Below, piece by piece: positions 12,351 to 62,042 of a DNA stretch of 64,000 nt. Under the pieces are notes generated by a model that saw only the letters and a list, made by a program, of their open reading frames with translations, did no database searches and had not been told where the DNA came from. Source of the stretch: Methanobrevibacter olleyae (GTDB lineage: Archaea; Methanobacteriota; Methanobacteria; Methanobacteriales; Methanobacteriaceae); contig SUTG01000003.1 in NCBI GenBank assembly GCA_015063035.1, positions 1 through 64,000 on the forward strand, written 5' to 3'. Position 1 is the first letter of the stretch; every line of letters begins with the position of its first letter. Made by a program: the position numbers and the translations under genes.

Positions 12351-12469
12351 TGAACCATTAGTAATACTTTTTTTTAAATTTTTATTAAAAGTAATACTTT
12401 ATATTTAGTTAAATTAAGATTAAAATTAATTATCATTGTTTAAAGATATTGTAAAATTATGTGATTATT

Positions 12470-13453
12470 ATGAGTTATGAAGATACTGCTGTATTGTTAT
12501 TAAGCCATGGGAGTACTCTTCCCTATGCAGAAGAAGTTTTTAAAAAGATATGCGCTAAGTTTAAGGAAGCGACAGAATTTGATGCTGAAGTAGGATACAT
12601 GAAAGTTGCAAAGCCAAACTTGCCACAAGCGATTAATATTTTAAAGGAGCGCAATCCTAACTTAAAACGCATTATAGCCACTCCAGTATTCTTGGCTGCT
12701 GGAATTCACACTAACATTGACATACCGATCATTCTTGGCCTTGAGCCTAAGGAAGTAGACCCAAGACAGCCTGATGGAAACTATCCTGAAGGACATTACT
12801 TATATGGCCTTGAAGAGGTTGATTTTGATGGAGACATTGATTTGCTCGGTCCTATAGGCCCTAATCCAAAGCTATTGAAAATAATCAACAATAAGATAAG
12901 CGGTGCACTTGAAGAGTCAAAGCTTGACGCAGATGCAAAAACAGGAGTATTGCTTGTAGTTCATGGAAGCAGATTGAATTACAGCAAAGAGTTCATTACA
13001 GATTTATTCGGACAATTTGAAGCACAATGCGATTATCCATGTGACTTTGGATTCATGGAACTTGTAGACCCTAACATTCCAACTTCAATCAACAAGCTTG
13101 TAAGCGAAAACGAAGTTGACAGACTGGTTGTCGTTCCAGTGTTCATTGCTCCTGGAGCACACACCACAAGGGACATTCCAACAATTTTAGGATTCATTGA
13201 AGATGATGGAACTGGCCATCACCATCACCATCATCATGACCATGGGCATTCTCACTCCCACGACCATGAACACTCACATGACCACGACCATGATCACGGC
13301 CATAGTCATTCTAATGGACATCATCACCATCATCATGGCCATGATGACGTGAAAATGGAATTTGATGGGGAAATATTATACCCAGACCCAATCTGTGATG
13401 ATGACATCCTAATCGAAATCCTTGAAGATATGGTTAAAGATGCTCTTGATTAA
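12470..13453 (+). CDS. cbiX: Two-domain CbiX/CfbA-like sirohydrochlorin chelatase with His-rich arm
   Basis: Inserts cobalt, or in methanogens nickel, into sirohydrochlorin for corrinoids or F430. Two CbiX repeats are visible: LLLSHGST (about 8-15) with PVFLAAGIHTNIDIP, and LLVVHGSR (about 165-172) with PVFIAPGAHTTRDIP. Methanogen CfbA is normally one domain of about 130-145 residues, so this is the long, duplicated form. A very His/Asp-rich stretch lies at about 250-292, likely a metal store or chaperone arm. Start ATG at 12470 follows the GTGATT ribosome site; the GTG at 12461 is part of that site. Whether it works with cobalt, nickel or both cannot be read from sequence. Confidence 0.88.
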   Translation: MSYEDTAVLLLSHGSTLPYAEEVFKKICAKFKEATEFDAEVGYMKVAKPNLPQAINILKERNPNLKRIIATPVFLAAGIHTNIDIPIILGLEPKEVDPRQPDGNYPEGHYLYGLEEVDFDGDIDLLGPIGPNPKLLKIINNKISGALEESKLDADAKTGVLLVVHGSRLNYSKEFITDLFGQFEAQCDYPCDFGFMELVDPNIPTSINKLVSENEVDRLVVVPVFIAPGAHTTRDIPTILGFIEDDGTGHHHHHHHDHGHSHSHDHEHSHDHDHDHGHSHSNGHHHHHHGHDDVKMEFDGEILYPDPICDDDILIEILEDMVKDALD

Positions 13454-17391: not shown

Positions 17392-18597
17392 TCAGTTGCC
17401 TTTAATCAATTCAACTACTTTTCTTGAAGCGGTTCCATCATCGAACTGATTGTATTTCTCATTGAATTTTCTGTACTTTTCGCCGAATTCATCATTGTAG
17501 CTATTGACATCAAAATTCTTCAGTAGCTCAATCAATTCCTGATTTGTCTCAACCTTAGGTCCTGGCGCTTCCTCAAAAATGTCAAAATAGAAGGACCTTA
17601 CGTTTTTTGTGTAATCCTCAATGTCATAAGTGAAATAGATCATAGGCCTTTTCAATATGGCATAGTCGAACATGACAGAGGAATAGTCTGTTATCATGAT
17701 GTCTGAAATGAGGTAAAGTTCCTGAATGTCCCATTCCTCATCGCATTCTATAATGAAGTCATCATATTTGCTCCAGTCAATGCTTTTGTCCTTTACCAAA
17801 TAGTGGAACTTGACAATCAAGGTAAAGTCATCCTTGAAGTTGTCATGCAATGCATCAAAATCCATAGCGCTTGCAAACTTGTATTCTCCTGCCTTTGTGT
17901 ACTGGTTGTCTCTCCAGGTTGGGGCATAGAGAATCACTTTCCTGTCTTTTGGAATATTGAATTTCTCCTTAATTTCCGCAATGTCTGATTCATTGTTCTT
18001 TTCAAACAACACGTCATTTCTAGGATATCCTATTTCAAGCATTTCCCCCTTGAAGTCAAATGCTTTCCTGAATATTTCTGATGAGTATTCATTTTGTGAC
18101 AAGAGGTATTGCCACTCTCTTGTATTCCTTTTGAAGTCTTCACGATACCTTTCAAGGTCAGTGTTGCCGCTCATGTCCAAGACATCCATATCCAATCCCA
18201 GTTTTTTGAATGGGGTTCCATGCCATGTCTGGATGTATCGTGTATTCCTGTTTTTTCTTAGATAATACAAATGCCTTGAGTCAAGGACCCAGACACCGCT
18301 TCTTAAAGTATAGAACAAGTGTTTGAAAAAGGACCTTTTCACCTTTATAGCTTTTCCAGGAATTTCAGTGTCAGTATTTGTAAGGGACCATACGCATTTG
18401 TACTCCTCATCAAGGCCTTGGTTAAGCATCTCTTCATAGATGTATCTTGGGCTTCCTGCATAATTGCGGCCACTGCTTGATTCAAATAGGATGACCTTGT
18501 CATTTGAAGGGATAATGTATGATTCCAATATGTAAATAGCTCTTACAGAGTATTTGGCCATATCCTTTATGATTTTCTTAAAGTTCACCATCATCAT
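17392..18597 (-). CDS. CDP-glycerol glycerophosphotransferase family protein (TagB/TagF-like)
   Basis: A 401-residue member of the CDP-glycerol glycerophosphotransferase family, which transfers glycerol phosphate from CDP-glycerol to build teichoic-acid-type polymers. Signature segments: TRYIQTWHGTPFKKLG (about 117-132), IGYPRND, VILYAPTWRDNQ, and the nucleotide-binding ITDYSSVMFDYAILKRPMI-type block (key residues D-Y-S-S-x-x-x-D-Y). The length is that of a TagB-like single catalytic unit without the N-terminal half of long TagF. It lies 28 bp after the LicC-like gene on the same strand. Whether it primes or polymerises cannot be told. Confidence 0.9.
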   Translation of the reverse strand: MMMVNFKKIIKDMAKYSVRAIYILESYIIPSNDKVILFESSSGRNYAGSPRYIYEEMLNQGLDEEYKCVWSLTNTDTEIPGKAIKVKRSFFKHLFYTLRSGVWVLDSRHLYYLRKNRNTRYIQTWHGTPFKKLGLDMDVLDMSGNTDLERYREDFKRNTREWQYLLSQNEYSSEIFRKAFDFKGEMLEIGYPRNDVLFEKNNESDIAEIKEKFNIPKDRKVILYAPTWRDNQYTKAGEYKFASAMDFDALHDNFKDDFTLIVKFHYLVKDKSIDWSKYDDFIIECDEEWDIQELYLISDIMITDYSSVMFDYAILKRPMIYFTYDIEDYTKNVRSFYFDIFEEAPGPKVETNQELIELLKNFDVNSYNDEFGEKYRKFNEKYNQFDDGTASRKVVELIKGN

Positions 18598-18625
18598 TAC
18601 CTTCCATCATCATATTGCTATGAAA

Positions 18626-19393
18626 TTATCCTTCCAGTTCCTTTACAAGTCTTTGGGCATTTTCCCAATCCTTATGGTCATCGATTTCTGTCCATTTGAG
18701 GCCGTTTGTCAAAACGAAATCTATTGTTTTGATCTCACTTAAGTCCTTGTATGCATAATCATAATAATTTTGAGGGTCTTCCTGAATCAGTCTTTCGAGA
18801 ATCCTATTGAATTCAGCAACATCATCCCTTTTCACTTTAGACACTCCTATGAATTCTCCAGTGGATGATGGAATGTCCAAGCCTTTTCCAATTGAATTGA
18901 TCTTGCCGTTAGCTATTGTCTTGTCTTCATTGAATGACTCATCATCAATTATAAGCTTGAATGATTCTTCATCAAGTTCCTTGAAGTTATCTATTATCAT
19001 TCCTGTATTGTTTGAATCGGCTATTCTGGAAATTATTTCAGGGTCAACAACATTGTCTCCATTGATTAAGACAAAGTCATCCAGATCGTTTTCCTCAATG
19101 AAGCTGCTTGCAATGAATGTTGATACGGAAGTGTTGGTGATATCGTATTTTTCGTTTGCAATGGATCTTATTTCTACGTCATGCTTTTCAGCTATTTGCG
19201 GACATAAGTCAATCACTTTTTCCTTATTGTAGCCCACTACAACTATGAATTTGCTTATACCAGCATCGATGCAGTTTTTAATCATTCTTTCAAGCAAAGT
19301 CATTTCATTTATTTTCAATAATGTTTTTGGAATATCTTTAGTAAGGGGCATCAATCTTGTACCCATTCCAGCTGATAATATCACACCAATCAT
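18626..19393 (-). CDS. LicC/phosphocholine-cytidylyltransferase-like nucleotidyltransferase
   Basis: A 255-residue nucleotidyltransferase. It opens with VILSAGMGTRLMPLT (substrate and CTP loop), then KTLLKINEMTLLERMI, VVGYNKEKV and VLINGDNVVDP, which holds the metal-binding Asp. This is the LicC-type CTP:phosphocholine cytidylyltransferase pattern; AEP cytidylyltransferase (PntC) has the same fold. The start is set at the ATG at 19393, preceded by GTGAT; a longer frame from 19483 adds a lysine-rich, non-homologous stretch. Next to glycerophosphotransferase, LicD and aminotransferase genes it likely activates an amine-bearing headgroup. Exact substrate is not determinable here. Confidence 0.82.
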   Translation of the reverse strand: MIGVILSAGMGTRLMPLTKDIPKTLLKINEMTLLERMIKNCIDAGISKFIVVVGYNKEKVIDLCPQIAEKHDVEIRSIANEKYDITNTSVSTFIASSFIEENDLDDFVLINGDNVVDPEIISRIADSNNTGMIIDNFKELDEESFKLIIDDESFNEDKTIANGKINSIGKGLDIPSSTGEFIGVSKVKRDDVAEFNRILERLIQEDPQNYYDYAYKDLSEIKTIDFVLTNGLKWTEIDDHKDWENAQRLVKELEG

Positions 19394-19508
19394 TTTATCA
19401 CATCTATCGATTATTTTTTTAAATATTTTTTTAATTCTTGATATAATTATATTTATATATTTAATTAACTTAAATATTATCAATTATGTGATACTTGTGA
19501 GGGATTAA

Positions 19509-20294
19509 ATGATTTTTCAATGTAAGGATGAGGATATTAAAAAAGTTTTAGATTATATTGGTGAAGATTATGGAAAATGTTTATATATTTTCATTGATTT
19601 AAAAAAATTTGGGCTTGATGATGAAAATTTTAATGTTTGGATTCAATACAATGAAAACGATATTTGCGCCATAATCAGTGAATACTTTGGTGGGGTTCAA
19701 ATATATAGCAAAGAGCAGGATTTGCTTCTAGAAGAAATAGCTGATTTTATTAAAGAAAAAGATACACATGTTCTTTTTGCCATTAAACCTATCATTGATA
19801 AACTTAAACCATTTTTACCCGATTATCAACAGGAAACAGGTACAGTTGGAGAATTGTTAGAATTAAAATATCCTCCAAACCCTAAAGCATATTCAGCACC
19901 AATCGAAGAGCTTCCTGAAATTGTTAAAATAGTTGCAGAAGATGAAGGCATTGGAAAACCTTATGGCTATGATTCGTTATATGAACAGTATATTCAAAGA
20001 AAAAAAGAAAACTTTGGGCGTAATTTTGTATTGAGGGATGATAACAATGAGATTATTTGTCATGCAGGAACCTATGCCGAACTTCCGGAATTGGCAGTTA
20101 TTGGTGGTGTAATCACATCTGTTCCTTATAGGGGAAAGGGCTTTTCAAAAGAAACCTTATCTTCTCTTTGCAAAGAGCTGAAAGATGAAAATAAAAGAAT
20201 CTTTTCATTCTTCTATATTCCATCTGCAGAGCATATGCATTATGGTGTAGGATTTGAAAAAATAGAGGATTGGTCTAAATTATTTAAAGACTAA
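19509..20294 (+). CDS. GNAT family N-acetyltransferase
   Basis: A 261-residue protein. The N-terminal half is a non-catalytic domain, and the C-terminal half is a GNAT domain. Motif A is GVITSVPYRGKGFSKETLSSL (key residues V-P-x-x-R-G-K-G-x-S) at about 198-218. RNFVLRDDNNEIICHAGTYAE precedes it as the strand pair facing the substrate. It is the only plus-strand gene inside the surface-polymer island and is divergent from the LicC-like gene, with the 115-bp gap holding both promoters. It could acetylate an amino sugar or amine of the surface polymer, but that is inference from location. Confidence 0.78.
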   Translation: MIFQCKDEDIKKVLDYIGEDYGKCLYIFIDLKKFGLDDENFNVWIQYNENDICAIISEYFGGVQIYSKEQDLLLEEIADFIKEKDTHVLFAIKPIIDKLKPFLPDYQQETGTVGELLELKYPPNPKAYSAPIEELPEIVKIVAEDEGIGKPYGYDSLYEQYIQRKKENFGRNFVLRDDNNEIICHAGTYAELPELAVIGGVITSVPYRGKGFSKETLSSLCKELKDENKRIFSFFYIPSAEHMHYGVGFEKIEDWSKLFKD

Positions 20295-20315
20295 TCCGTT
20301 TTAAAAATTTTTTAC

Positions 20316-20426
20316 TTTTTTATTCAATAAAATATTCTTTTTTCATTCTTTTAATTTATCATCTAACTTATTTTTTATTCAACAAAATATTCTTTTTTCC
20401 CTATTCTTTTTATCTCATCAACTAGT
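20316..20426. repeat. Tandem duplication of degenerate-LicD 3' end
   Basis: The block 20371-20426 includes the stop codon and last codons (EYFVE) of the 400-residue gene on the minus strand. A copy lies at 20316-20370 (period 55) in non-coding sequence between the two convergent genes. Confidence 0.8.
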
Positions 20427-21577
20427 TTCTTATCCCCTCTTTTCATCAAGACCCTTTCAATCAAATCGTCTGTTTTAGGGTCTATTGAAAATGTCATTCC
20501 TACTTTGGAATATGTCCTGAGAGAAGAAATGGCTGGGCTTAACTCTTCATAAAGTTCTTCAAGTTCTAGTTCATTGTTCAAATCATATTTCAGCAATTCA
20601 TCAGTTTTTTCCTTAAACATATCCTCTAAAAATATTTGTCTATCGGTCATTTGAACCAATTTCCAAACATTGTCAATAGCTATTTTTTCGTTGTATGCTT
20701 TCAATCTTCCCCACATGACTTCTTCACGGGTGGCTTTAGCCTCTTTAATGAGATCTCCCACTTCTCCCATTATTTCCTTATAACTCACTTCAGTATCTAG
20801 AATCACACGCATGTTCTGCCCTTTAGGTATGATTTTCCTTTCCTTGAAATCTTCACCGTAAATTTCAATGAAGTATGCATCTATATCCTTTGGAACGCAT
20901 AGGCTTATTCCATCAAATTCAAGTCTTCCAATTTCCTTTAGGATATGGGTTTCAATTCCCTTATTGATGAAAGCGACTCTTGAATAATTTTGGATATCTT
21001 CCCATTTATCAATGAATGTGTTGCTTTTTAACTTGTTATAGTAACGTTTTGATCCGCCGGTGAGTTCATAAGCTCCATTAATGGCCTTAAGGCCTCCTTT
21101 TACAAACCAGAATTTCTTGTTTTCAATGGTCTTGTTCATGAATTCACGAGCTTTTTTCTCCTTTGACAATCTTGGAGTGTATCCTATAATTCTTTTTCCG
21201 TCGAGAGCTACGGTTTTACGAATAGGATAGATACGAATATTGATTCCATGGTGCTTGTTTTTATTTCTGGCAATCATATGGAATTCTGCTGTATTCTCGT
21301 TTCCATATGTTACATATAATGGGAGATAATTTGGATTGTTGAATATCCCTTCAATATAACGGTCTTTTCTGTTTTCCTTTTCCACAATCTCACAAAAGCG
21401 ATCAATATCCCCTTGTGTCATGGCTAAGCTGACAATCCTATTGTCTTTTTTGATTGTATGATTAAGGTAAGCGTTTAAGGCACTGATTCCAACAAATATG
21501 TAGTTTAAATTGTTCTGTGAGCAAATTTCATCGACTTCTTGAAGCAATTCTAATTGAATTTCTTGTTTTGTTTTCAT
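20375..21577 (-). CDS. LicD-related protein lacking the catalytic DDxD motif (copy 1)
   Basis: A 400-residue protein whose N terminus follows LicD (IQLELLQEVDEICSQNNLNY, then a Gly-Ile-Ser-Ala-Leu segment). The aspartate-rich WDDDID motif of active LicD is replaced by MTQGDIDRF. It is 31% or more similar by eye to the 24435-25607 protein along its length: RINI-IYPIRK, NAYELTGG/ERANRIRY region, YSRVAFI/YPFVRVS and the Ser-Leu-Glu-rich C terminus align. It lies 16 bp after an intact LicD. Likely a nucleotidyltransferase-fold partner or a substrate-recognition subunit. The family has no established function that I can name. (The similarity is judged by eye, not computed.). Confidence 0.65.
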   Translation of the reverse strand: MKTKQEIQLELLQEVDEICSQNNLNYIFVGISALNAYLNHTIKKDNRIVSLAMTQGDIDRFCEIVEKENRKDRYIEGIFNNPNYLPLYVTYGNENTAEFHMIARNKNKHHGINIRIYPIRKTVALDGKRIIGYTPRLSKEKKAREFMNKTIENKKFWFVKGGLKAINGAYELTGGSKRYYNKLKSNTFIDKWEDIQNYSRVAFINKGIETHILKEIGRLEFDGISLCVPKDIDAYFIEIYGEDFKERKIIPKGQNMRVILDTEVSYKEIMGEVGDLIKEAKATREEVMWGRLKAYNEKIAIDNVWKLVQMTDRQIFLEDMFKEKTDELLKYDLNNELELEELYEELSPAISSLRTYSKVGMTFSIDPKTDDLIERVLMKRGDKKLVDEIKRIGKKEYFVE

Positions 21578-21593
21578 TATTTAACCCCTTTAA

Positions 21594-23258
21594 TCAGTCT
21601 TCTCCACTTAATTCCTTAATCAACTCACGTTCAATGTCCATACGGCTATATCCGCATTCATCTTCTACCTTTTGCCAAATCAAACCGTTTCTGGTATTGT
21701 CAACGGATTTCTTGTATAATTCCATGGCCTTATCATTTTCACCAAGCTCTGATTTTGCCCTAGCTTGACTAGCCATTATCTCTCCATCAAATGGATATAA
21801 GTTTAATGCCTCATCACATAGATTGTCAATTGATTTGTAATCTTCAGCAGTTTCTGCATTGCTTTCCATAAGCCAGATCTTAGCCCTATAGATGTCTATC
21901 AAATCAGGATATTCCTCATCATATTTCCCAATCAGTGATTGAACCAATTCCTTATCCTTCTTGTCATATCTAGCTATTGAGAGTTCCCTTGCAATATCGC
22001 AGATTTCTTCAATCTTAGTGAATTCCTCTCCAAGAGGCTCCTCTTCTGCTTTTCTAACGCTTAGGAACTTGTTGACATTATAGTATTGGCCCTGTTCAAT
22101 CAAGCTGAACAATGCTGTTGCAAGATTCTTGTCTGAAATAGGGACCTTGATGTTGTATCTTCTGACATCTGCAATGGATTGCAGTTTAGTGTATTCCTTG
22201 AATTCATCATTCAAAGCTTTATAATCTTTATTTTCTAATAATTCACGTAGATAATCCTCTTTTCCTTCCAATTTATTGATGATGTGTCTGGATTCGACCT
22301 TAACTTTTGCCTTTGCAACCAGCATATCGACTTTTCTACGGTTATAGTAGACTTCAGCGTTGTTCCTTTTATTTTTCTTGTATTTTCTAAATACTTTCTC
22401 ACGGTTGATCTTGCCGACATAACGTTTTGTATACTCTTCAAATGGAATTTCATTTTTAAGGCCGTTATGTGATACCTGTTCTTCATAAACTGGAATGTAC
22501 ATCCAGCTGTCACCGTATGCAGTTCTAAGGATGCCTTCTGTATTGTATCCTATAGGGAACTCGCCGTCTTCAAATTTTCCAAGCTCAATGTTTTTGAAGT
22601 GCTTCTTGTTGTAGATATAGTTCTTGATTCCCCAGTGCATGCAGTATTCATCGCATTCCTCATCTGTATAAGACTTCAATTTATCTTCAAGTTCATTCAG
22701 GACTTTCTCTTCTCCTTCCTTGTCAACCCTTTTGCAGTATTTCTTATACAGTTCATAGTGCTTTTGCCAATCCTCAAGAGAGGTGTTTTTATTCACTATA
22801 AAGTAAGGGGATAGCAATTCAGTGTAGATTTCAAGGGTTTCGAGATATTTTTCCCTTTCGGCCTCATCTCTTGGTATCAGGTCAAATATGAATAGTTCAA
22901 GGTGTTGGCCACATGCCTTTGCAGTGAATGCCTGTGAAATGTAAATGTTTGTAGAGCTTGTGTCAACATATCTAGGGAGTGGATTGCAATAGTAGGGAGT
23001 GTTTTCCTTATAGACAAAAGATCTTCCTTCAGGCAAGACATTCTCTTCGGTTTCAAGAACATGTCTCAATTTGTTCCAGTTATCTCTTGTAATGTATAAG
23101 TCTATATCATCATCCCAAGGCATGAAGCTGCGGTTTCTGACTGCGCCTAATGATGCACCTGCAGCAAGGAGATATTCCACATCATATTTCCTGCAGAGTT
23201 CATCAAATTCAACCAATAGCTGATATAGATTGCTCTGCAAAGTGTTCATTTTACTCAA
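21594..23258 (-). CDS. LicD family phosphotransferase with C-terminal helical repeats (copy 1)
   Basis: LicD proteins move phosphocholine or a similar phospho-amine from a CDP carrier to surface glycans. The catalytic segment is at residues 34-53: GASLGAVRNRSFMPWDDDID, with the metal-binding Asp cluster intact. The LicD domain spans about 1-260. The rest (about 330-554) is helical, with tetratricopeptide-like spacing (EALNLYPFDGEIMASQARAK). Length 554 is double that of a minimal LicD. It is followed by its degenerate partner after 16 bp. A close paralogue lies at 25597-27234 with the same architecture. Confidence 0.85.
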   Translation of the reverse strand: MSKMNTLQSNLYQLLVEFDELCRKYDVEYLLAAGASLGAVRNRSFMPWDDDIDLYITRDNWNKLRHVLETEENVLPEGRSFVYKENTPYYCNPLPRYVDTSSTNIYISQAFTAKACGQHLELFIFDLIPRDEAEREKYLETLEIYTELLSPYFIVNKNTSLEDWQKHYELYKKYCKRVDKEGEEKVLNELEDKLKSYTDEECDEYCMHWGIKNYIYNKKHFKNIELGKFEDGEFPIGYNTEGILRTAYGDSWMYIPVYEEQVSHNGLKNEIPFEEYTKRYVGKINREKVFRKYKKNKRNNAEVYYNRRKVDMLVAKAKVKVESRHIINKLEGKEDYLRELLENKDYKALNDEFKEYTKLQSIADVRRYNIKVPISDKNLATALFSLIEQGQYYNVNKFLSVRKAEEEPLGEEFTKIEEICDIARELSIARYDKKDKELVQSLIGKYDEEYPDLIDIYRAKIWLMESNAETAEDYKSIDNLCDEALNLYPFDGEIMASQARAKSELGENDKAMELYKKSVDNTRNGLIWQKVEDECGYSRMDIERELIKELSGED

Positions 23259-23343
23259 TTGAATTCGCTCCCAATTTTATTTTTCTCTCTAATTTCAAAC
23301 ATCTACAATTAGCATAAATCTTATCTTATTTTAAGATTTTATT

Positions 23344-24408
23344 CTAAGCATTGATAATCTCTTCAATAGCTGATACAAGTTCTTCTGTATCTTCAATGGA
23401 ATGGTTACCTACATGAGCAACCCTAAACATCTTTTTGGCATTGTCTCCACCACTTGGATTGACTGTGAATCCATACTTGTCAATGAGTTCCCTATAAACC
23501 ACATCAGCGTTTTCATCAGGGAATATCACTGGAGTCACTGCATTGGACAATGGATAGCTTGGGTAATCCAAACCGATTTCCTTGATTCTTTTTCTAAAGT
23601 AAACAGCTATTTCATGGGTGTCATTGATGATGTTTTCAATTCCTCTTTCCTCAAAGCGTTTAACTATATCTTCCAGCTCAATGATAACCCTTACAGCTGG
23701 AGTGAATGGGGTTTGGCCTCTTTCACCATTCTTCAAGTAATCCTTGAAATCAAAATAGATGGATTTGGAATCTATGGTTTCAACCCTTTTCAAGGCCTTT
23801 TCGCTTAATGCAACAACAGATAATCCTGGAGCAAGTGACAATGCCTTCTGTGAGCTTAATATGACAGCATCGATTCCATACTTGTCCATATTTACTTCAT
23901 CTGCCAAGAATGCGCTGATTGCATCTACAACAAAGACCAAATCCTTTTCCTTACAGAGTTCAGAGAGCATTTCAATGTCATACAATTGGCCTATTGAAGT
24001 TTCATCCAAGTTCACGAGCAAACCTGTAAATTCATCTTCTCCCATAACTTCATCAATCATTTCCCTTGTAAGGGTTTCGCCTTGCTCAACCTCTACAACC
24101 TTATGAGGGATTTCATGAACTTCACAAATTTGGACAAAACGGTTTCCAAAGGAACCTCCGTTTATGACTATTAGATTGTCTTCCTTTGTAAAGCAGTTCA
24201 TTATGGTAGCTTCCATAGCACCTGTTCCAGAACAGGTCAATAATATTATTTCTCCCTTTTCATTGAACAATAATCTTTTCAATCCTGCGTTAGCGGAAAA
24301 TACCACTTGCGAAAACTCATCATTTCTGAAGTAAGGGACTTGCTTTCCACCGATTTCCAATGTTTCCTCAAACATTTCTACAGGTCCGATTGCAAACAAT
24401 TTACTCAT
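23344..24408 (-). CDS. Class V PLP aminotransferase, 2-aminoethylphosphonate transaminase-like
   Basis: A 354-residue fold-type-I aminotransferase of the alanine-glyoxylate / AEP-pyruvate transaminase group. Schiff-base Lys188 lies in SSQKALSLAPG, the cofactor-binding Asp162 in VDAISAF, and the phosphate-binding SGTGAMEA at about 60-67. RGQTPFTPAVRVI and the C-terminal RVAHVGN are also typical. It sits between the two LicD pairs, 26 bp after copy 2's partner. Near a LicC-like cytidylyltransferase it could create or consume an amino-alkyl headgroup such as aminoethylphosphonate. No phosphoenolpyruvate mutase gene is in the window, so the substrate is open. Confidence 0.8.
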   Translation of the reverse strand: MSKLFAIGPVEMFEETLEIGGKQVPYFRNDEFSQVVFSANAGLKRLLFNEKGEIILLTCSGTGAMEATIMNCFTKEDNLIVINGGSFGNRFVQICEVHEIPHKVVEVEQGETLTREMIDEVMGEDEFTGLLVNLDETSIGQLYDIEMLSELCKEKDLVFVVDAISAFLADEVNMDKYGIDAVILSSQKALSLAPGLSVVALSEKALKRVETIDSKSIYFDFKDYLKNGERGQTPFTPAVRVIIELEDIVKRFEERGIENIINDTHEIAVYFRKRIKEIGLDYPSYPLSNAVTPVIFPDENADVVYRELIDKYGFTVNPSGGDNAKKMFRVAHVGNHSIEDTEELVSAIEEIINA

Positions 24409-24434
24409 AATCTAATCTCCTATAAAAGTTTAAT

Positions 24435-25607
24435 TTAAATCTCTATTTTTAATTTTTTAATATTATTTAATAATTCTATTTCTTGATTTTTTCCTAAATA
24501 ATCATATAATATGTTGTCAATATCCTCATCAACTGAATAAGTGTAACCCAATTCCATAGATTTTTTCAATGATTTAATTAATGGATCTAATTCAATTTTT
24601 AGATTTCTTTCATCTTCGATTTTATAAAGATCAATTATCTTTTCTTTTTTATTTAACATATCTTTGCGGATTTTAACAACGTTCTCACTTTGAATAATTT
24701 GTCTTTTTAAATTAGTGCTAGTTTTTTTATATTCCTCCATTTCCATTCTTTTTATATAATTTAACTCATCACATCTTTGTATAATCTCTAAACTTTCTCT
24801 TAATTTGAAATCATTTGAAAACTCTTCCCAACTAATAATACTGCTTTTATAACCATTATTTAATTTCCACTCCTTTTCTTTCCAATTTTTTCCATAAAAA
24901 TTGAATATAAACGGTTCGAAATCTTCAAGTATAAATGTAGGCACTCCATCTAATTCTTTAGAAATAAGTTTTTCAAATATATCACTATTAAATTTTCTTC
25001 CAGAAACTCTTACAAAGGGATATTTTTTGATATTAGTCCATGTATCAATTGCGTAATTTCTTTTTTTGTTTTCGTACCTTATTCTGTTAGCACGTTCATT
25101 TCCTATAAAAAAACATATGATATTTAATATTTTTTGATGCAATTTACATTTCCAAAATTTGTTGTTAATTAGTTTCAAATATCTCAAATTCCATAATCTT
25201 TGTTGAGATTTAAGTTTTTTTCCTTGTCCTTTTGGGATTTGATGATTAATAAAATGAATATTAATTCGAATGCAATGATTATCTATATGCCTGTCGGTTT
25301 GAAAATTCATATCAATCAATTTAAAATCCAATGAATTTTTAAATCCAAACATCATCATGTTTTTATCAAATTTAGGGTTTGATCTAAAATCTTCAAAGTA
25401 ATATGCATCATCATTTAAAATATCTGCAATCTTTTCAGCATCCCCTTGGCACATTATAACATCCAACGATTCCATTTCATTGATAGACTCATTTTTATAT
25501 GCCAAAATTGCTGCTTGTTTATGTAAAGCATAACTAACGTTTGCTTCTTCAGATAGTTCATTTAATTTGCGAAGCAAATCAAGTTGTATGTCTTTTCTAG
25601 TTTGCAT
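24435..25607 (-). CDS. LicD-related protein lacking the catalytic DDxD motif (copy 2)
   Basis: A 390-residue paralogue of the protein at 20375-21577. It begins RKDIQLDLLRKLNELSEEAN, has IMCQGDAEKI where active LicD has WDDDID, and shares the C-terminal LGYTYSVDEDID-like ending with GMTFSIDPKTD of copy 1. The ATG at 25607 overlaps the upstream LicD stop by 11 bp and has GGATGTG as ribosome site, so the pair is translationally coupled. The DNA is visibly more A+T-rich than copy 1, hinting at a different history. Function unknown; obligate partnership with LicD is inferred from the repeated pairing. Confidence 0.65.
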   Translation of the reverse strand: MQTRKDIQLDLLRKLNELSEEANVSYALHKQAAILAYKNESINEMESLDVIMCQGDAEKIADILNDDAYYFEDFRSNPKFDKNMMMFGFKNSLDFKLIDMNFQTDRHIDNHCIRINIHFINHQIPKGQGKKLKSQQRLWNLRYLKLINNKFWKCKLHQKILNIICFFIGNERANRIRYENKKRNYAIDTWTNIKKYPFVRVSGRKFNSDIFEKLISKELDGVPTFILEDFEPFIFNFYGKNWKEKEWKLNNGYKSSIISWEEFSNDFKLRESLEIIQRCDELNYIKRMEMEEYKKTSTNLKRQIIQSENVVKIRKDMLNKKEKIIDLYKIEDERNLKIELDPLIKSLKKSMELGYTYSVDEDIDNILYDYLGKNQEIELLNNIKKLKIEI

Positions 25608-27234
25608 TTTGCACATCCTCCGCCAATCTATCAATACCTACATATTTCTTTGCATCTTTCCAAATTAATCCATTTCTTGTATTGTGGACTGCTTCATAGT
25701 ACATTTTACTTGATTTATCCATTTCCCCTATATTGTAGAGAGCTTCTGCAATATAGGCCATGATTTCACCATCTGTAGGAAAATCTTCTAGCATTTTATT
25801 TCCTTCATCAATAATTAGATTATAATCTTTTTCATTTAGCTTATTCAATTCAAGCCATAATCTAGCCCTATAAGTTTCAACTAAATTTTCACAATAATCC
25901 TCTGCTTTATTTAACGTATTTTCAACAGTCTCTATATCTTTATTATCAAAAATAGCAACGGACAATGTTCTACAATAATCGCAAATATCTTTAAGATATT
26001 TTAAATCTTCATCAAGTTCAAAATTATTTTCACAAATATCTAAAATATTTCTACTAATAAAGTATGTTCCCTGTTTAATTTTATTCTCAATAGCTATTTT
26101 TAACAAATTCTTATCAATTTCAATGAATAAGTTAAAGGTTTTGCAATTCTCATCTAACTGAACTGAATAATAGTCTGCAAATAATTTATTCAACACATCA
26201 TATTCTCCCTCTTCTAATAATTTTTTAGGATTATAATCATTTATTTCAATTTTTTTGTATAATTCTCTAATTATTATAAATCCTTTCATTCTAATTTTTT
26301 CTAATGAAGATTTAACTCTCGGGATGTGTAAATCAATATTTAATTGTTTAAGCTTCTCATAATTTTTCAAAGTTTCCTCTTGATTAATTTGTTTTAAATA
26401 TATTTTAGTATACTCCTCAAAGGAGTGATTTAAAGAGTTTATTAAAGGGAAATGAAATATTTGATCATCTTTTTCTGGAACATACATCCAGCTGTCACCA
26501 TATTGCACTCGACACATATCTTCCAATCCTTTTGGAACTGGAAATTTTTTCCCTTCAAATTCTTCATAACGTTTTCCAGTATAATCTTCAGTTTTGAAAA
26601 TTATTTCGTTGTTTCCCCAACGCAAATATAAATTATCAGCTTTTTCTAAAGGATATGAGTAATATTTTTCATAAATTTCATCCAATATCGTAGAGTGCCC
26701 TTTCTTTTGAATTTCATTATAATACTTAAAAACTAATTTTTTATGTTCTTCATATTCATTTAAAGGAATGTGTTTGGAAGTCATAAAGGTAGGTGATAAT
26801 ATTTCCAAAAAAGCTCGCATGTGTTTTATATGTTCCTCTTGCCCATCTTCTATATTTGGGATTGGGTCTAAGATAAAAAATTCAACTTGTTCACCGCAGG
26901 ATTTTGCCGCAATTGATTGGGCTAGATGAATAACTGTTGATGTTGTGTCAGTATATCTTGCTATTGGATTTCTATAATACTTTGTATTTTCCATACAAAC
27001 TAAATCTCTATTTTTTGGTAATATTTCCGGATTTTCACTAATTAAATTGTATAGTTTTTCCCAATTTGATCTTGTAATATGCAAGTCAATATCATCATCC
27101 CATGGAAGAAATCCATTATTTCTGATTGCTCCTAATGCAGCGCCTCCACCAATACAGTAATCAATATTATTCTCTTTACAAATATCATCTATTTCTACTA
27201 ATAAGTCGAATAATCTTTTTTGTTTTTCATTCAT
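25597..27234 (-). CDS. LicD family phosphotransferase with C-terminal helical repeats (copy 2)
   Basis: A 545-residue LicD with intact GGGAALGAIRNNGFLPWDDDID (about 29-50; Asp47-Asp50 form the metal site). PIPNIEDGQEEHIKHMRAF and YGDSWMYVPEKDD also match copy 1 (PIPRDEAEREK, YGDSWMYIPVYEE). The C-terminal half is helical repeat-like with MLEDFPTDGEIMAYIAEALY. It is more A+T-rich than the first copy. It is preceded 42 bp upstream by the TagD-oxidoreductase fusion and followed by its degenerate partner in an 11-bp overlap. Two divergent LicD pairs may decorate two positions or use two headgroups. Confidence 0.85.
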   Translation of the reverse strand: MNEKQKRLFDLLVEIDDICKENNIDYCIGGGAALGAIRNNGFLPWDDDIDLHITRSNWEKLYNLISENPEILPKNRDLVCMENTKYYRNPIARYTDTTSTVIHLAQSIAAKSCGEQVEFFILDPIPNIEDGQEEHIKHMRAFLEILSPTFMTSKHIPLNEYEEHKKLVFKYYNEIQKKGHSTILDEIYEKYYSYPLEKADNLYLRWGNNEIIFKTEDYTGKRYEEFEGKKFPVPKGLEDMCRVQYGDSWMYVPEKDDQIFHFPLINSLNHSFEEYTKIYLKQINQEETLKNYEKLKQLNIDLHIPRVKSSLEKIRMKGFIIIRELYKKIEINDYNPKKLLEEGEYDVLNKLFADYYSVQLDENCKTFNLFIEIDKNLLKIAIENKIKQGTYFISRNILDICENNFELDEDLKYLKDICDYCRTLSVAIFDNKDIETVENTLNKAEDYCENLVETYRARLWLELNKLNEKDYNLIIDEGNKMLEDFPTDGEIMAYIAEALYNIGEMDKSSKMYYEAVHNTRNGLIWKDAKKYVGIDRLAEDVQNAN

Positions 27235-27276
27235 TAAATATCACCGTAAGATAATTAACGATTTTAATTTTTTATT

Positions 27277-28581
27277 TTACTTTTCAGCCTTCTTGACTTG
27301 CTCCAATACCTTAACTATATTAAAGGATTCATCCTCAAATATGCTTTTGGAATCAGTACGATTTCTTGATAGCATTCTTGACATTGCCCTGATTAGGTAT
27401 TTGAAACCGTTTCCTTCAAAGTTTGTATTATATATCTGGACATCTTTGGATCCTGGAGTGTGAAGTTCAAAGCTCTTGCTTCTCCACCAAGCGCCTTTCA
27501 TCCTGATTGTACCTTTTGTTCCAATGATTTCCAATTGGTTGTCAACACGTATTTCGTTTCCAACGTTGATCACTGCTCTTCCGTTAGGATAAGCGAAATT
27601 CATGGATGCAAATTCGATATTTTCCCCATCCTTTTTCACTAGGAAATCCGCTTTTTCCCAATCTGAACCCATTATCTTAAGCATAGGCAATATTGCAATG
27701 GAGCTTAAGTCATAGAATAGGTTGGAACGGCTTGCATCATTTTTGGAAATGGAACAGTTAAAGCTCAATATGTCTCCAATCAATCCGCCTTGTGTCATCC
27801 ATAGGAGCTGGTTGAATACATAGATGTGAACCATCTTGATGTTTTCCATCAATATGAGTTTCTTTTCCTTAGCAAGGTTCATCAGCTCTTCCAGCTCGCT
27901 TGTCTTGAATGTTGCTGGGGGGTCATAAATGACATGCTTTCCAAGCTTCAATGCCCTTTTGATGAAATTGAATCTTTTTTCTATGGAACAGCGAATATAA
28001 ACGATATCAGAGGACTCGATAAGTTCATTGTAATCATCAAAAACATTAGGAAGGGAATACTTTTTCTGGAATAGCTTCAATTCCTCTTCATTGTCACAAT
28101 AGACATTCTTCACTTCAAATCCATTAACCAACTTTGCCTCATTCACAATTTGATTGTCATCTGCAAAGTCACAGATTATTCCAATGTCGTATTGGTCGAA
28201 TTTCTCTTCCCTTATTTGTGTGCTGGATATTCCTTTGGTTCTTTCAAGGTAAATCATATCACAATATCTGGACAAATGATCGAATTTTCCTCTCCAGTCA
28301 TCACCGATTACAAATGCGTCAATGTCGTATTTGATGATATCTCCTATCTTCTGTCCGAGATATTCCTCAACGATGATCTCATCTGCAAATCCGGTGTTGA
28401 CCACATTTTCAATTCTTGTTGCAAGTGAATCATGAACGTTAAGCTTTCCACGGCCAATGTCATAGTTTTCACCAGTGACACCAACAACCAAATAGTCTCC
28501 ATGTTCCTTTGCTCTTTTTAAAATGTTATAGTGTCCTATATGAAATAAATCAAATGTTCCATATGTGATAATCTTTTTCAT
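27277..28581 (-). CDS. Fusion: glycerol-3-phosphate cytidylyltransferase (TagD) + Gfo/Idh/MocA oxidoreductase
   Basis: Two enzymes in one 434-residue chain. Residues 1 to about 130 are a TagD-type cytidylyltransferase: MKKIITYGTFDLFHIGHYN with the HxGH motif at 14-17, and RTKGISSTQIR near 113-123. This would make CDP-glycerol from CTP and glycerol 3-phosphate. Residues of about 135-434 form an NAD-dependent Gfo/Idh/MocA-like domain with GKHVIYDPPAT and a C-terminal sheet domain. The ATG at 28581 has GAGGA upstream and is chosen over 28632. It lies 19 bp after gpsA, which would supply its substrate. What the oxidoreductase half acts on is unknown. Confidence 0.88.
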   Translation of the reverse strand: MKKIITYGTFDLFHIGHYNILKRAKEHGDYLVVGVTGENYDIGRGKLNVHDSLATRIENVVNTGFADEIIVEEYLGQKIGDIIKYDIDAFVIGDDWRGKFDHLSRYCDMIYLERTKGISSTQIREEKFDQYDIGIICDFADDNQIVNEAKLVNGFEVKNVYCDNEEELKLFQKKYSLPNVFDDYNELIESSDIVYIRCSIEKRFNFIKRALKLGKHVIYDPPATFKTSELEELMNLAKEKKLILMENIKMVHIYVFNQLLWMTQGGLIGDILSFNCSISKNDASRSNLFYDLSSIAILPMLKIMGSDWEKADFLVKKDGENIEFASMNFAYPNGRAVINVGNEIRVDNQLEIIGTKGTIRMKGAWWRSKSFELHTPGSKDVQIYNTNFEGNGFKYLIRAMSRMLSRNRTDSKSIFEDESFNIVKVLEQVKKAEK

Positions 28582-28600
28582 AGTAAGTCCTCTTTTTAAT

Positions 28601-29566
28601 TTAAATGTTTTCCCACAATTTTTTAAATGCAATTTTTGGTGGGATTTGTTTTATAATGACATCATAAACAAAATCAACTATTTCACTTTTTATATTGGTT
28701 TTTTCGCAAATTTCCTTCATGGCCATAATTGAGTTTTTTCCTTCAAAAACTATCCCGCTTGCTTTCTCATCTACAATAATTCTTTGACCATATAACATAC
28801 CTAAGGTGTGATTTCTGCTTTCATTTGAAGTGGATGTAAGTACAAGATCTCCGAATCCACAGTATTCTCCAACTGTAGAGGCATTTCCCCCTACGCTTTC
28901 AATTATTTTTATAGTCTCTTTAAAACCTTTTGTTAAAACAGCATATCTTGCATTTTCATTGATATTCATTCCTTCACAGATACCATTTGCTATTGCATTG
29001 ATATTTTTTACAATTCCGCATATTTCAAGACCTACAACATCATCTAAAATCTTTACTTTAAAGTGTGGTGTTGATAACACTTCTTTTACCTTTATAGCAT
29101 TTTCTTTATTTTTTGATGCGATATTTGATACTGTTTCAAGGTTTAAGACCATTTCTGATGCAAAGTTAGGTCCAGACAATGAAACATGCCCATCATCAAA
29201 GTATTCGCTTATCACATTTCCCATGGTTTTTAAAGAAGGGTATTCAATTCCTTTTGCAGTTGAGACAAGAATTGTATCTTCATCAACACAATCTTCAATT
29301 TCAGATAAAGTTAATCTAAATGCAGATGATGGAATGGATAAAAATATTATTTTGCAATCTTTTAAATCATCATAACTGGTAGTGGCTATTATGTTTTCCT
29401 CTAATTTTGTATTGGGATAATATTCATTGTTAATGCCATCTCTGTTAATGGATTCAGCTAATTCCTCTCTTCTCATATATAGGTATACTTCATCTACATT
29501 TTGGGCTATTATTTGAGCTAATGCAGTACCTAAACTACCTGCCCCTATAATACCTACTTTATCCAT
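28601..29566 (-). CDS. gpsA: sn-Glycerol-3-phosphate dehydrogenase GpsA
   Basis: Bacterial-type NAD(P)-dependent reductase of dihydroxyacetone phosphate to sn-glycerol 3-phosphate, 321 residues. Nucleotide motif GIIGAGSLGTALA (about 4-16), FLSIPSSAF (about 75-83), STAKGIE (about 102-108), SGPNFASEM (about 137-145), the catalytic Lys in IVKNINAIANGICEGM (about 189-204) and EYCGFGDLVLTSTSNESRNH near 235-255 (substrate-binding Arg-Asn). Archaeal membrane lipids use glycerol 1-phosphate made by an unrelated enzyme, so this gene serves another purpose. Being 19 bp upstream of the TagD fusion, it very probably feeds CDP-glycerol synthesis. Confidence 0.92.
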   Translation of the reverse strand: MDKVGIIGAGSLGTALAQIIAQNVDEVYLYMRREELAESINRDGINNEYYPNTKLEENIIATTSYDDLKDCKIIFLSIPSSAFRLTLSEIEDCVDEDTILVSTAKGIEYPSLKTMGNVISEYFDDGHVSLSGPNFASEMVLNLETVSNIASKNKENAIKVKEVLSTPHFKVKILDDVVGLEICGIVKNINAIANGICEGMNINENARYAVLTKGFKETIKIIESVGGNASTVGEYCGFGDLVLTSTSNESRNHTLGMLYGQRIIVDEKASGIVFEGKNSIMAMKEICEKTNIKSEIVDFVYDVIIKQIPPKIAFKKLWENI

Positions 29567-50439: not shown

Positions 50440-51264
50440 ATGGATGAATTTGAAATAAAATTATTTGAAAACCAGGAGATTCGTAGAAAATGGGATGCAG
50501 AGTTGGAGGATTATTACTATTCTATTGTTGATGTTATAAGCGTATTATCAAAAAGCAATAATCCCCGTAGATATTGGAGTGACTTGAAACGAAAAATGAA
50601 AGAACAAGAGGGAAGTCAGTTGTACGAAAATATCGTACAACTCAAATTGAAATCAAGTGACGGAAAATTTTATAAAACAGATGTTGCAAATACAAAGCAA
50701 CTATTAAGAATAATACAATCAATTCCATCCCCAAATGCGGAACCATTTAAAATTTGGCTTGCTGAAGTAGGTAAAGAACGTATCGATGAAATCAAAGATC
50801 CTGAAAGAGCCATAGAAAGGGCAATAGAATCATATCGCCGGCAAGGCTATAGTGAAGAATGGATCAGTCAAAGAATGAGGTCCATAGAGGTTCGTAAGGA
50901 TTTGACTGGGGAATGGAAAAACAGAGGAGTGAAATTTGGTGAATATGGCATATTAACCAATGAAGTCAGTAAAGCTTGGTCTGGAAAGACTGTGCCTGAA
51001 TATAAAAAATTTAAGAATCTTAAAGGCGAAAGTCTTAGGGACAACATGACCAATGCCGAACTGGTTTTCAATATGTTGGCTGAAGTGTCAACCACGGAAT
51101 TGAGCCGTGGCACTAAGCCAAAAAATTTCGAGGAAAACAAAATCGTTGCACGGGAAGGAGGTGGAATTGCAGGTGATGCCCGAAGAAAGTTGGAGAGAAA
51201 ATCCTGCAGAAATATAGTCAGCAGCAGAAATGCAAAATGCGATAAAAATGTTTTAGATATATAA
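50440..51264 (+). CDS. Bro-N domain protein, phage antirepressor/DinD-like
   Basis: A 274-residue protein with an N-terminal BRO-like domain (IRRKWDAELEDYYYSIVDVI, then NNPRRYWSDLKRKM) followed by ANTKQLLRIIQSIPSPNAEPFKIWLAEVGKERI-type core (key residues P-S-P-x-A-E-P-F-K-x-W-L-A). The C-terminal half (YSEEWISQRMRSIEVRKDLT, then LTNEVSKAWSGKT) is shared with widely spread gut-bacterial and phage proteins related to DNA-damage-inducible protein D. It is alone here, without other phage genes. It could be a cargo gene gained by transfer or a prophage remnant. The last residues (CDKNVLDI) depart from the usual ending. Confidence 0.78.
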   Translation: MDEFEIKLFENQEIRRKWDAELEDYYYSIVDVISVLSKSNNPRRYWSDLKRKMKEQEGSQLYENIVQLKLKSSDGKFYKTDVANTKQLLRIIQSIPSPNAEPFKIWLAEVGKERIDEIKDPERAIERAIESYRRQGYSEEWISQRMRSIEVRKDLTGEWKNRGVKFGEYGILTNEVSKAWSGKTVPEYKKFKNLKGESLRDNMTNAELVFNMLAEVSTTELSRGTKPKNFEENKIVAREGGGIAGDARRKLERKSCRNIVSSRNAKCDKNVLDI

Positions 51265-59782: not shown

Positions 59783-60928
59783 ATGAACTTTAATTTTAAA
59801 AACGGAAATCTTGATCTATTCAATCCACTGATTATTGTAGTCATGGCTATCCTTTTCCTAATCATAGCTATGCCTATGTGGTATTTTTATCAGGAATTGC
59901 CTTCTCCAAATTTAGATTTGTATATCTATATCGGATTAGGGCTTTTGTTCTTTATTTTTGGTGTTTTTTCATCTAACTACCTCTTAAGCAAAAAATTCAA
60001 AATCGATGCGACCAGTTCCCCTAAAAAAATTTTTAACCCTGAGGAATTATCATTGTCTGATTCATATTCAAAAAAAGAATTGGTTCTTGTGGGACTGGTT
60101 TTATTAGGCATTTTGCTGCAGATTATAAATATAGCTTTTTTGGGAGGAATTCCACTTTTCTCCGCTACATTAAAGGCAAAGGCGGCAACTAAAATATGGC
60201 TAATTTCATACATAATTTTCCTACCATCCATCAATGTCTTGCTTGCAAGGTTCAATAGAAAATCACATTATCTATTATTACTTATAGGTTTAGTCTTGTT
60301 TGCTCTTACTGGATATAGGACCACTCCTATTGCAATCATGCTTTCAGCACTTATCACCTTGTACTATACAAGGGATGTTGATGTGAAATACATAATCCTA
60401 GCTATTTTAGCTATTGCAGTTGTGCTTTTGGCAGTTGGATTCATTGCAGTTCAAGCCATCAGCTGGCAGCACTGGTCTTTGAATCCAATTGAATTGGTCT
60501 CTTATAGGGCGGCATTTACATTGAACATACTTTCAAAGGCTATCGAGAATCAATGCGCCACCATGGGCAATCTATTCTACACAACATTGACAGGATTCTT
60601 CACACATTCAGATGCAAGGGTTCTGGTTGGCCAAGCCACATTAGGTCAGGTCCATTCCATAACCTCAACTATATTCGGCCCTGCATTGCTTGACTTTGGG
60701 ATTGTGGGAATGATTATTCAAATGCTCTTATTAGGATTTATCCTCAAGACCTTACATAGCATACAAAATTACAAAAAGGAAATCTTTACAGCATTTTATG
60801 GAATTTTGCTTGCACAAACAATCATATGGATAGAGACAGGCCCAACTGATGTTGTGGTTTGGCTATTCTATTTAATAGGAATCTTACTCATCATCCATTT
60901 TTTAAGGGGTGCAAATCATGAAATCTAA
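59783..60928 (+). CDS. Oligosaccharide repeat unit polymerase-like membrane protein (Wzy-type)
   Basis: A 381-residue protein with about ten membrane helices. The pattern of helices with a large loop holding SWQHWSLNPIELVSYRAAFT and the family-like SKAIENQCATMGN and QVHSITSTIFGPALLDFGIVG (key residues T-x-x-G-x-x-x-x-D-x-G) is that of archaeal oligosaccharide repeat unit polymerases. These join lipid-linked repeat units outside the membrane. The downstream glycosyltransferase-like gene overlaps its 3' end by 11 bp, so the two are coupled. Sequence conservation in this group is low, so the call rests on topology and a few motifs. Confidence 0.75.
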   Translation: MNFNFKNGNLDLFNPLIIVVMAILFLIIAMPMWYFYQELPSPNLDLYIYIGLGLLFFIFGVFSSNYLLSKKFKIDATSSPKKIFNPEELSLSDSYSKKELVLVGLVLLGILLQIINIAFLGGIPLFSATLKAKAATKIWLISYIIFLPSINVLLARFNRKSHYLLLLIGLVLFALTGYRTTPIAIMLSALITLYYTRDVDVKYIILAILAIAVVLLAVGFIAVQAISWQHWSLNPIELVSYRAAFTLNILSKAIENQCATMGNLFYTTLTGFFTHSDARVLVGQATLGQVHSITSTIFGPALLDFGIVGMIIQMLLLGFILKTLHSIQNYKKEIFTAFYGILLAQTIIWIETGPTDVVVWLFYLIGILLIIHFLRGANHEI

Positions 60929-62042
60929 GAATTTAGCCATTGCCGGAGAGATCACTCCATCCAAGACAATCATCCCAATCATTGAAAAGTTAAGGGAGCA
61001 GGAAAGGGAAGGCAAATTAAAATTTAAGATAGATAAGATAATAGGCCTTTATCATGGAGAATCATCAAGAGATTTACTCGAACCTTATTGTGATGAAACA
61101 TATTCTATTGGAGAAGGCAGAAGAGGGAAAAAGAATTCTCGTGGAAAATTGGCATACCTCATTTCAAAGGATATCTTAAAGTCATTCAATGCCCTTAAAG
61201 GAAAGGATATTGACTTATTGATTACTGCAGGAAATGCTGGGGATGTTAGAAAGGCCATATTAGCTGCAAACATTTTGAATATTCCAGTCTTGCATATAGA
61301 GCAGGATATTTATAATCCTATAGAAGTCATTTCACAAGCCAATCTCATAACGGTTCCATCTGAGGAATACAAGGAATATCTGGAGAAGAGTTATAATCTG
61401 AAGAATGTTGTCAATATCCAAGGATATCCTATGGCAAAATATGTTCACAATTACATCAAGGATGAAAGCAATTTAATAGACAAGGATGAAATATACGGAG
61501 AATATGGAATGAAGGAATTCGTCCTTATTGTCCTTGGTGGAGATTTGAAGGACGATGATATTGAGCCATTGATAAGGTCTGTTGAAGAGCTTAATCTCAA
61601 GGCATTGATTGCTCCCTATAGGTTTGACAGAAACATGGTGCAGGATTTGATCTTATCACCAAACATTAAGGTTTTGCCTCAATATGTTGATTTATTGAGC
61701 TTTATGAATGCCGCTTCCCATCTAATCTATGCTGCAGGTATGGGGATGACAATTGAAGCAGGAGTATTCAACATCCCATCATTAAAAATAGAAGGATTCC
61801 ATAAAACCCATGGCAGTGTTGACTTGGCAAAGGAACTGAACATACCAATCGTAAAAATAGAGGAAATTCCAGAAGCATTTGAAAATCTCCCCGAACAAAA
61901 GGAATCAGATCTTGTAAAGGATAGTGAGATAGCTATTGAAAGATTAGTGGATTTGATAAATGATTTTGATGAAAAATCATTAAAAAGAAGCGGATTTAAC
62001 TCCACTAAGCAAATTTGGAATAGCCGTAAAGTATACAGATAA
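60918..62042 (+). CDS. GT-B-fold glycosyltransferase/epimerase-like protein (MurG/WecB-like)
   Basis: A 374-residue soluble protein with a two-domain GT-B look. N-terminal GEITPSKTIIPIIEKLREQE and IDLLITAGNAGDVRKAILAANILNIPVLHIEQD (key residues T-A-G-x-x-x-x-V; H-I-E-x-D) resemble the part of UDP-GlcNAc 2-epimerase and MurG that reads a partner sugar. The C-terminal FVLIVLGGDLKDDDIEPL and SHLIYAAGMGMTIEAGVFNIPSLKI (G-G then A-G-x-G-M-T-x-E-A) fit nucleotide-sugar binding. The ATG at 60918 follows AGGGGTG and overlaps the polymerase gene. Probably adds or prepares a sugar for the same glycan. Epimerase and transferase remain alternatives. Confidence 0.68.
   Translation: MKSKNLAIAGEITPSKTIIPIIEKLREQEREGKLKFKIDKIIGLYHGESSRDLLEPYCDETYSIGEGRRGKKNSRGKLAYLISKDILKSFNALKGKDIDLLITAGNAGDVRKAILAANILNIPVLHIEQDIYNPIEVISQANLITVPSEEYKEYLEKSYNLKNVVNIQGYPMAKYVHNYIKDESNLIDKDEIYGEYGMKEFVLIVLGGDLKDDDIEPLIRSVEELNLKALIAPYRFDRNMVQDLILSPNIKVLPQYVDLLSFMNAASHLIYAAGMGMTIEAGVFNIPSLKIEGFHKTHGSVDLAKELNIPIVKIEEIPEAFENLPEQKESDLVKDSEIAIERLVDLINDFDEKSLKRSGFNSTKQIWNSRKVYR

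Follow-up and report, generated by a model that had tools for sequence, protein, structure and literature searches.

The window analysed here is the first 64,000 nucleotides of contig SUTG01000003.1 of Methanobrevibacter olleyae, part of a 2.28 Mb genome of the Methanobrevibacter group that is 95.6 per cent complete, and at 17392–29566 it carries a ten-gene block of GpsA-, TagD-, TagF-, LicC- and LicD-related genes (Table 1). An earlier reading made from the letters alone (the sequence-only reading) had seen in this block a single pathway to a cytidine diphosphate (CDP)-glycerol polymer decorated with a phospho-amine. All of the genes it named are present where it placed them, as judged from Pfam and NCBIfam matches, and its one-strand arrangement with gaps below 100 bp holds for most genes, the exception being a GNAT gene on the plus strand; missed or under-described were the two LicD-fold partner proteins, the TPR-like tails, the GNAT gene and the Gfo/Idh half of the TagD protein. 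The genes are indeed co-located, but the block is two modules sharing one locus and not one pathway: a core of GpsA, a LicC-like gene and a TagF-type polymerase, and a module of about 9 kb that is inserted between GpsA and the LicC-like gene in the window and in some relatives. In other genera these two core genes adjoin.

Table 1. Genes of the block, in window coordinates, with the matches on which each assignment rests.
Feature	Position	Strand	Evidence
GpsA-type sn-glycerol-3-phosphate dehydrogenase (core gene 1)	28601..29566	-	PF01210/PF07479, NF000942 over cut-off
TagD-like cytidylyltransferase fused to Gfo/Idh/MocA domain (TagD–Gfo; module)	27277..28581	-	TIGR01518, PF01408
LicD phosphotransferase copy A, C-terminal TPR-like region, motif WDDDID	25597..27234	-	PF04991 92 bits
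Partner of LicD A: degenerate LicD-like, DDDxD lost	24435..25589	-	no Pfam match; alignment
Class-V pyridoxal phosphate aminotransferase (module)	23344..24408	-	PF00266
LicD phosphotransferase copy B, C-terminal TPR-like region, motif WDDDID	21594..23258	-	PF04991 83.7 bits
Partner of LicD B: degenerate LicD/FKRP-fold protein, DDDxD lost	20375..21577	-	AlphaFold2 model
GNAT N-acetyltransferase-like protein (module)	19509..20294	+	PF00583
LicC-like NTP transferase (core gene 2), proposed CTP:glycerol-3-phosphate cytidylyltransferase	18626..19393	-	PF00483 57 bits
TagF/TarF-type CDP-glycerol glycerophosphotransferase (core gene 3)	17392..18597	-	PF04464 385.7 bits (cut-off 22.1)

The block is flanked by methanogen genes, PurE and a UbiD-like gene on one side and an AmrS-like radical SAM gene with ThiL on the other, and this flanking order recurs in other Methanobrevibacter genomes. 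Of two single-contig genomes, the one matching M. ruminantium M1 contains the core and the one matching M. smithii PS a form of the amine module. Given methanogen flanks in conserved order and these occurrences in single-contig genomes, the block is not an artefact of chance or contamination.

The linkage between GpsA and the LicC-like gene carries the case for the core, whose three families were each searched in 139 Methanobacteriaceae genomes. The window GpsA aligns with PDB entry 3k96 (E 4e-45) and retains the KN, GFGDLVLT and SRN motifs, and its family is detected in 58 of the 139 genomes. Both GpsA and the LicC-like gene are present in 49, GpsA alone in 9, the LicC-like gene alone in 2 and neither in 79 (a partial match was scored as positive, and one weak paralogue match was excluded), which gives a Fisher p of 1e-25, a statistic uncorrected for kinship among the genomes. 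The distance between the two genes was measured in 47 pairs and is below 250 bp in 39; a TagF-type gene comes next here, as it does in most of 25 core loci sampled from several genera. The three-gene core is common to about a third of Methanobacteriaceae, and the LicC-like gene was found in none of 13 further genomes of the phylum outside that family. A second, more distant GpsA type (∼52 per cent identical) stands directly beside an IspD/TarI-like cytidylyltransferase in six loci (L129, L146, L148, L152, L156 and L157). With GpsA lying beside either a LicC-like or an IspD-family cytidylyltransferase, the simplest rule would be that sn-glycerol-3-phosphate (G3P) is made in order to be cytidylylated.

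The TagD–Gfo gene does not follow the core in this way. It is missing from 32 of the 49 genomes that have the GpsA/LicC-like pair, its coupling to GpsA is loose (together in 25 genomes, GpsA only in 33; p 0.004), and with the LicC-like gene it has no association (p 0.45). The pairing of GpsA with the LicC-like gene and the many paired genomes that lack TagD–Gfo make the LicC-like enzyme a better candidate for CDP-glycerol synthesis than the TagD domain, to which the sequence-only reading had given that role. It is somewhat probable that the LicC-like gene encodes the cytidylyltransferase of the core, a substrate that is suggested by its linkage to GpsA and not by its own sequence, for which LicC (PDB 1jyk, E 1e-12) is the best structural match.

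The polymerase of the window aligns with Staphylococcus epidermidis TagF (PDB 3l7i, E 2e-93) over the whole catalytic domain and retains the WHGTP motif; the variant entry 3l7j aligns at the same position and there reads WNGTP. Its score with the TarF equivalog model is 338.7, below the cut-off of 550. A CDP-glycerol-type polymerase close to TagF, as had been proposed, is supported, and so is the earlier preference for G3P (GpsA) chemistry over glycerol-1-phosphate chemistry, an EgsA-type glycerol-1-phosphate dehydrogenase candidate for lipids being encoded elsewhere in the genome. The GpsA/LicC-like linkage together with the TagF-type polymerase leads to a core model of GpsA, a LicC-like cytidine triphosphate (CTP):G3P cytidylyltransferase and a glycerophosphotransferase, and we consider it likely that this core builds a bacterial-style glycerol-phosphate wall polymer. 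A candidate exporter for such a polymer is a TagH/Wzt-like ABC ATPase encoded away from the block (G000:C66:16795-17559, locus L184; 209 bits, cut-off 320). TagG and TagH genes also lie near the core in some genomes, and this neighbourhood was not counted as support because GatB and a CBS protein lie between. The same genome holds a further Glyphos_transf domain in a 946-aa open frame (G000:C65:4513-5613).

Within the inserted module, TagD–Gfo starts 19 bp after GpsA with an ATG at 28581. It scores 113 bits with TIGR01518, below the cut-off of 165.4, and 44.5 bits with PF01408, and its TagD domain aligns with Bacillus subtilis TagD (PDB 1coz, E 2e-33). No stand-alone TagD above the TIGR01518 cut-off was found in the genome, the only other match being a 157-aa protein at 32.7 bits. 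An AlphaFold2 model of TagD–Gfo, with a predicted local distance difference test score (pLDDT) of 89, has the two-domain Gfo/Idh/MocA fold, and its nearest folds are 3e9m and KijD10. A stand-alone TagD accompanies TagD–Gfo in four bacterial loci, and the fusion should therefore make something besides plain CDP-glycerol.

Both LicD-TPR proteins keep the WDDDxD motif, score over the cut-off of the Pfam LicD family and match the NCBIfam Mf1 cholinephosphotransferase model (copy B at 79.7 bits); TPR models match only their bacterial homologues. Each is followed by a partner gene of about 400 codons with no Pfam match, and the two partners align with each other and with bacterial partners, WDDDxD being replaced by unrelated residues. 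In an AlphaFold2 model of the copy-B partner (pLDDT 90), the 13 best PDB fold matches are all to human FKRP, with probabilities of 0.98–1.00 but E values of 0.007–0.07. FKRP is a LicD-family enzyme, and the LicD-fold partners are probably non-catalytic. A recent tandem duplication of the two LicD/partner pairs was considered and rejected: identities of only 36 and 24 per cent, and the different neighbours of related pairs elsewhere, argue for separate acquisition or old paralogy.

The closest solved structure to the aminotransferase is 3f0h (309 bits, 44 per cent identity). The plus-strand GNAT gene belongs to the inserted module; a 65 per cent identical homologue lies between TagD–Gfo and the aminotransferase in Longibaculum muris, and in 7 bacterial loci a GNAT gene lies no more than four genes from the aminotransferase. 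Three methanogen loci lack the class-V enzyme and have in its place a class I/II aminotransferase and an opine dehydrogenase, flanked by the LicD pair and the LicC-like gene (L035:9335-11636, L036:172-2490 and L037:8022-10351), and the module of some methanogens and Clostridia includes an OCD/alanine-dehydrogenase-like gene. It is this constant company of transamination and amine-handling genes that makes the case for an amine product, and the phospho-amine decoration envisaged earlier is probable, as amine-handling genes recur with TagD–Gfo and LicD.

A profile scan for the aminotransferase over 84,980 species genomes recovered loci in Bacillota, Bacteroidota, Fibrobacterota, Actinomycetota and Saccharibacteria. 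TagD–Gfo is the gene next to the aminotransferase in 47 of 65 bacterial loci, with a median gap of 15 bp, and lies at most four genes away in 9 more; LicD is within three genes in 34 of the 65. The LicD-TPR/partner pair is also present in some Clostridia and in L. muris, whose locus combines the module with TagG/TagH-like transporter genes, a TagD of its own above the cut-off and TarF-like genes. On the tree of the aminotransferase, methanogens fall into two groups that lie among bacterial sequences, and a single origin of the methanogen enzyme is rejected (constrained tree, p-AU 0.0004), while the TagD–Gfo tree needs three label changes, possibly including losses. The module has very probably been transferred from gut bacteria.

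From families, folds, motifs, adjacency, co-occurrence and transfer, we infer each substrate, the polymer and the sequence in which the amine is built, as follows. In the core, GpsA would convert dihydroxyacetone phosphate (DHAP) to G3P, the LicC-like nucleotidyltransferase would convert G3P to CDP-glycerol, and the TagF-type enzyme would extend a surface glycan with glycerol-phosphate units into a teichoic-acid-like polymer. In the module, the TagD domain would provide a second cytidylyl-activated glycerol phosphate, to which the Gfo/Idh domain and the aminotransferase would add an amino group, most simply from CDP-glycerol by way of CDP-dihydroxyacetone to CDP-2-aminoglycerol (CDP-serinol). 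The GNAT protein may acylate the amine, and the two LicD-TPR enzymes, each with its degenerate partner, would move the phospho-amine group to the polymer or to another glycan. Taken as a whole, the scheme of a core polymer with a transferred amine module is slightly favoured, and an amine as the product of the module is a reasonable expectation. Oxidation followed by transamination is the neatest route to that amine without being secure, and we put it forward tentatively; the C2 position of the amine, and hence the name CDP-2-aminoglycerol, is a guess. In its fullest form the proposal, also a tentative one, is that gut bacteria of at least four phyla possess an undescribed cytidylyl-activated amino-glycerol route (CDP-2-aminoglycerol or an isomer), run by TagD–Gfo and the aminotransferase and serving LicD decoration, and that at least two transfers into gut methanogens added it to a native-looking G3P polymer operon with LicC-type CDP-glycerol synthesis.

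Several observations weigh against this scheme. The catalytic lysine of the EKP motif is absent in 75 of 75 TagD–Gfo homologues, which have Ser, Ala, Thr, Met or Pro in its place, and members of the methanogen clade have a degenerate first Rossmann glycine loop, so that the oxidation step is doubtful; a literature search on this lysine in KijD10 found nothing usable. TagD–Gfo is present without GpsA in 16 genomes, the LicC-like protein resembles sugar-1-phosphate nucleotidyltransferases too, and the linkage-unit genes and ligase of TagD/TagF systems were not identified here, no search having been aimed at TagO/TagA or an LCP-type ligase. The main rival to oxidation first is amination before activation, in which the aminotransferase would turn DHAP into serinol phosphate (or glyceraldehyde-3-phosphate into 3-amino-1,2-propanediol phosphate), TagD would cytidylylate the product and the Gfo-like domain would have a binding or structural part. 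Serinol can be made by way of a DHAP aminotransferase. Amination first accounts for a lysine lost family-wide although the C-terminal region is strongly conserved, and for the independence of TagD–Gfo from GpsA, but it leaves unexplained why a conserved Gfo/Idh fold stays fused and why an oxidoreductase-type domain is paired with a transaminase, and we regard it as possible but doubtful. Decoration with phosphocholine or phosphoethanolamine of the Lic1/Mf1 type would suit LicD proteins that match the Mf1 model, and Mf1, a member of the LicD family, transfers both groups from CDP donors in vitro (PMC11982090). It would leave the aminotransferase and TagD–Gfo without a role, and genes for the choline kinase LicA and the choline transporter LicB were not seen in the block, a genome-wide search for them not having been made; this type of decoration is quite improbable. 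An aminoethylphosphonate pathway built on a PhnW-type aminotransferase and a PntC-type nucleotidyltransferase might be suspected from the match of both the aminotransferase and the NTP transferase to the PntC-aminoethylphosphonate transaminase fusion 6pd1. No phosphoenolpyruvate (PEP) mutase was found when it was searched for in this 95.6 per cent complete genome, so the route would be without its first enzyme and was rejected here as extremely improbable; in other Methanobrevibacter a cytidylyltransferase–PEP mutase fusion belongs to a separate cluster. That cluster, with the fusion (435 aa), a thiamine pyrophosphate enzyme that is possibly a phosphonopyruvate decarboxylase, and LicD genes (L030:9103-16297, L156, L157 and L158), is a probable archaeal phosphonate headgroup cluster in its own right.

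The single pathway of the sequence-only reading, in which the polymerase would receive its CDP-glycerol from TagD and LicD would use a phospho-amine activated by the LicC-like enzyme, draws on the family names, on co-location and on LicC being the solved structure nearest to the NTP transferase. The distribution of the genes makes it unlikely. The LicC-like gene tracks GpsA and not LicD: five genomes of the genus have it but yield no LicD match, among them the genome matching M. ruminantium M1 (core present, no TagD–Gfo), and 34 genomes of the family have it without TagD–Gfo. TagD–Gfo in turn is found in 24 genomes that lack the GpsA/LicC-like core, besides the four bacterial loci where it coexists with a separate TagD. 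This speaks both against TagD supplying the polymer with CDP-glycerol and against a place for the LicC-like enzyme in the decorating branch. It is also improbable that GpsA has its role in membrane lipids or redox balance (making G3P lipids or cycling DHAP and G3P) beside accidental neighbours: the gene has been treated as part of the lipid divide (PMC5059525; PMC6431249), but it adjoins one of two unrelated cytidylyltransferases, with the TagF-type gene then present in most sampled core loci, and the EgsA-type candidate is present.

That Methanobrevibacter may make a teichoic-like polymer is already known as an idea: homologues of teichoic-acid genes were reported in M. ruminantium and such a polymer was suggested (Leahy et al. 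2010; PMC2812497), in a paper that also cites wall phosphate in this species as high as that of teichoic-acid walls. An earlier study considered the GpsA of Methanobacteria as a lipid gene acquired by transfer and found in gene order no clue to the direction (PMC5059525; see also PMC6431249). The new elements here are the core operon, the reassigned enzyme roles and the amine module acquired by transfer; in the literature searched, no aminotransferase/TagD–Gfo/LicD pathway or CDP-aminoglycerol was found, which is no proof of absence. The core operon offers a non-lipid job for the puzzling GpsA of Methanobacteria, a gene that has figured as evidence in debate on the lipid divide, and the gene set may underlie the high phosphate reported for Methanobrevibacter walls. 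The module is widespread in gut bacteria and its predicted chemistry is testable. Phosphodiesters on the surface of gut methanogens matter for immune recognition, for phages and for vaccines or inhibitors aimed at rumen methane.

Elsewhere in the window, 12461-13453 reads by eye as a CbiX/sirohydrochlorin-chelatase-like protein with a long histidine-rich stretch, 50440-51264 as a phage antirepressor of the Bro-N type, and 59783-62042 as an O-antigen-type-polymerase-like membrane protein with a possible glycosyltransferase- or epimerase-like neighbour.

Several known systems bear comparison with the proposed scheme. The TagD/TagF (TarD/TarF) systems of Bacillus and Staphylococcus share the sequence from G3P through CDP-glycerol to TagF-type transfer, with the WHGTP motif, whereas here the setting is an archaeal pseudomurein cell, CDP-glycerol would probably come from the LicC-like enzyme, and the TagH-like ATPase lies away from the locus. 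LicC/LicD of Streptococcus and Mf1 of Mycoplasma fermentans (PMC11982090) are alike in the WDDDID motif and in phospho-alcohol transfer from a cytidylyl donor; the LicD proteins here differ in their TPR-like tail and degenerate partner, in a donor that would come from TagD–Gfo and the aminotransferase, and in lying in a block where no choline genes were seen. The PntC-aminoethylphosphonate transaminase fusion (6pd1) likewise joins an NTP_transferase-fold nucleotidyltransferase to a class-V aminotransferase in preparing a phospho-amine headgroup, but here there is no PEP mutase and the aminotransferase, closer to 3f0h, is tied to a TagD-type protein. Pairs of a KijD10-type Gfo/Idh ketoreductase and an aminotransferase resemble the module in fold and in the logic of an oxidoreductase and a transaminase acting on a nucleotide-linked substrate, although the EKP lysine is absent here and the substrate would be a CDP-linked polyol. 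Finally, serinol (2-amino-1,3-propanediol) in the capsule of Campylobacter jejuni (PMC12096443) is a three-carbon amino-diol used for a surface glycan; in that capsule it is amide-linked to glucuronic acid, whereas a cytidylyl-activated phosphodiester is proposed here.

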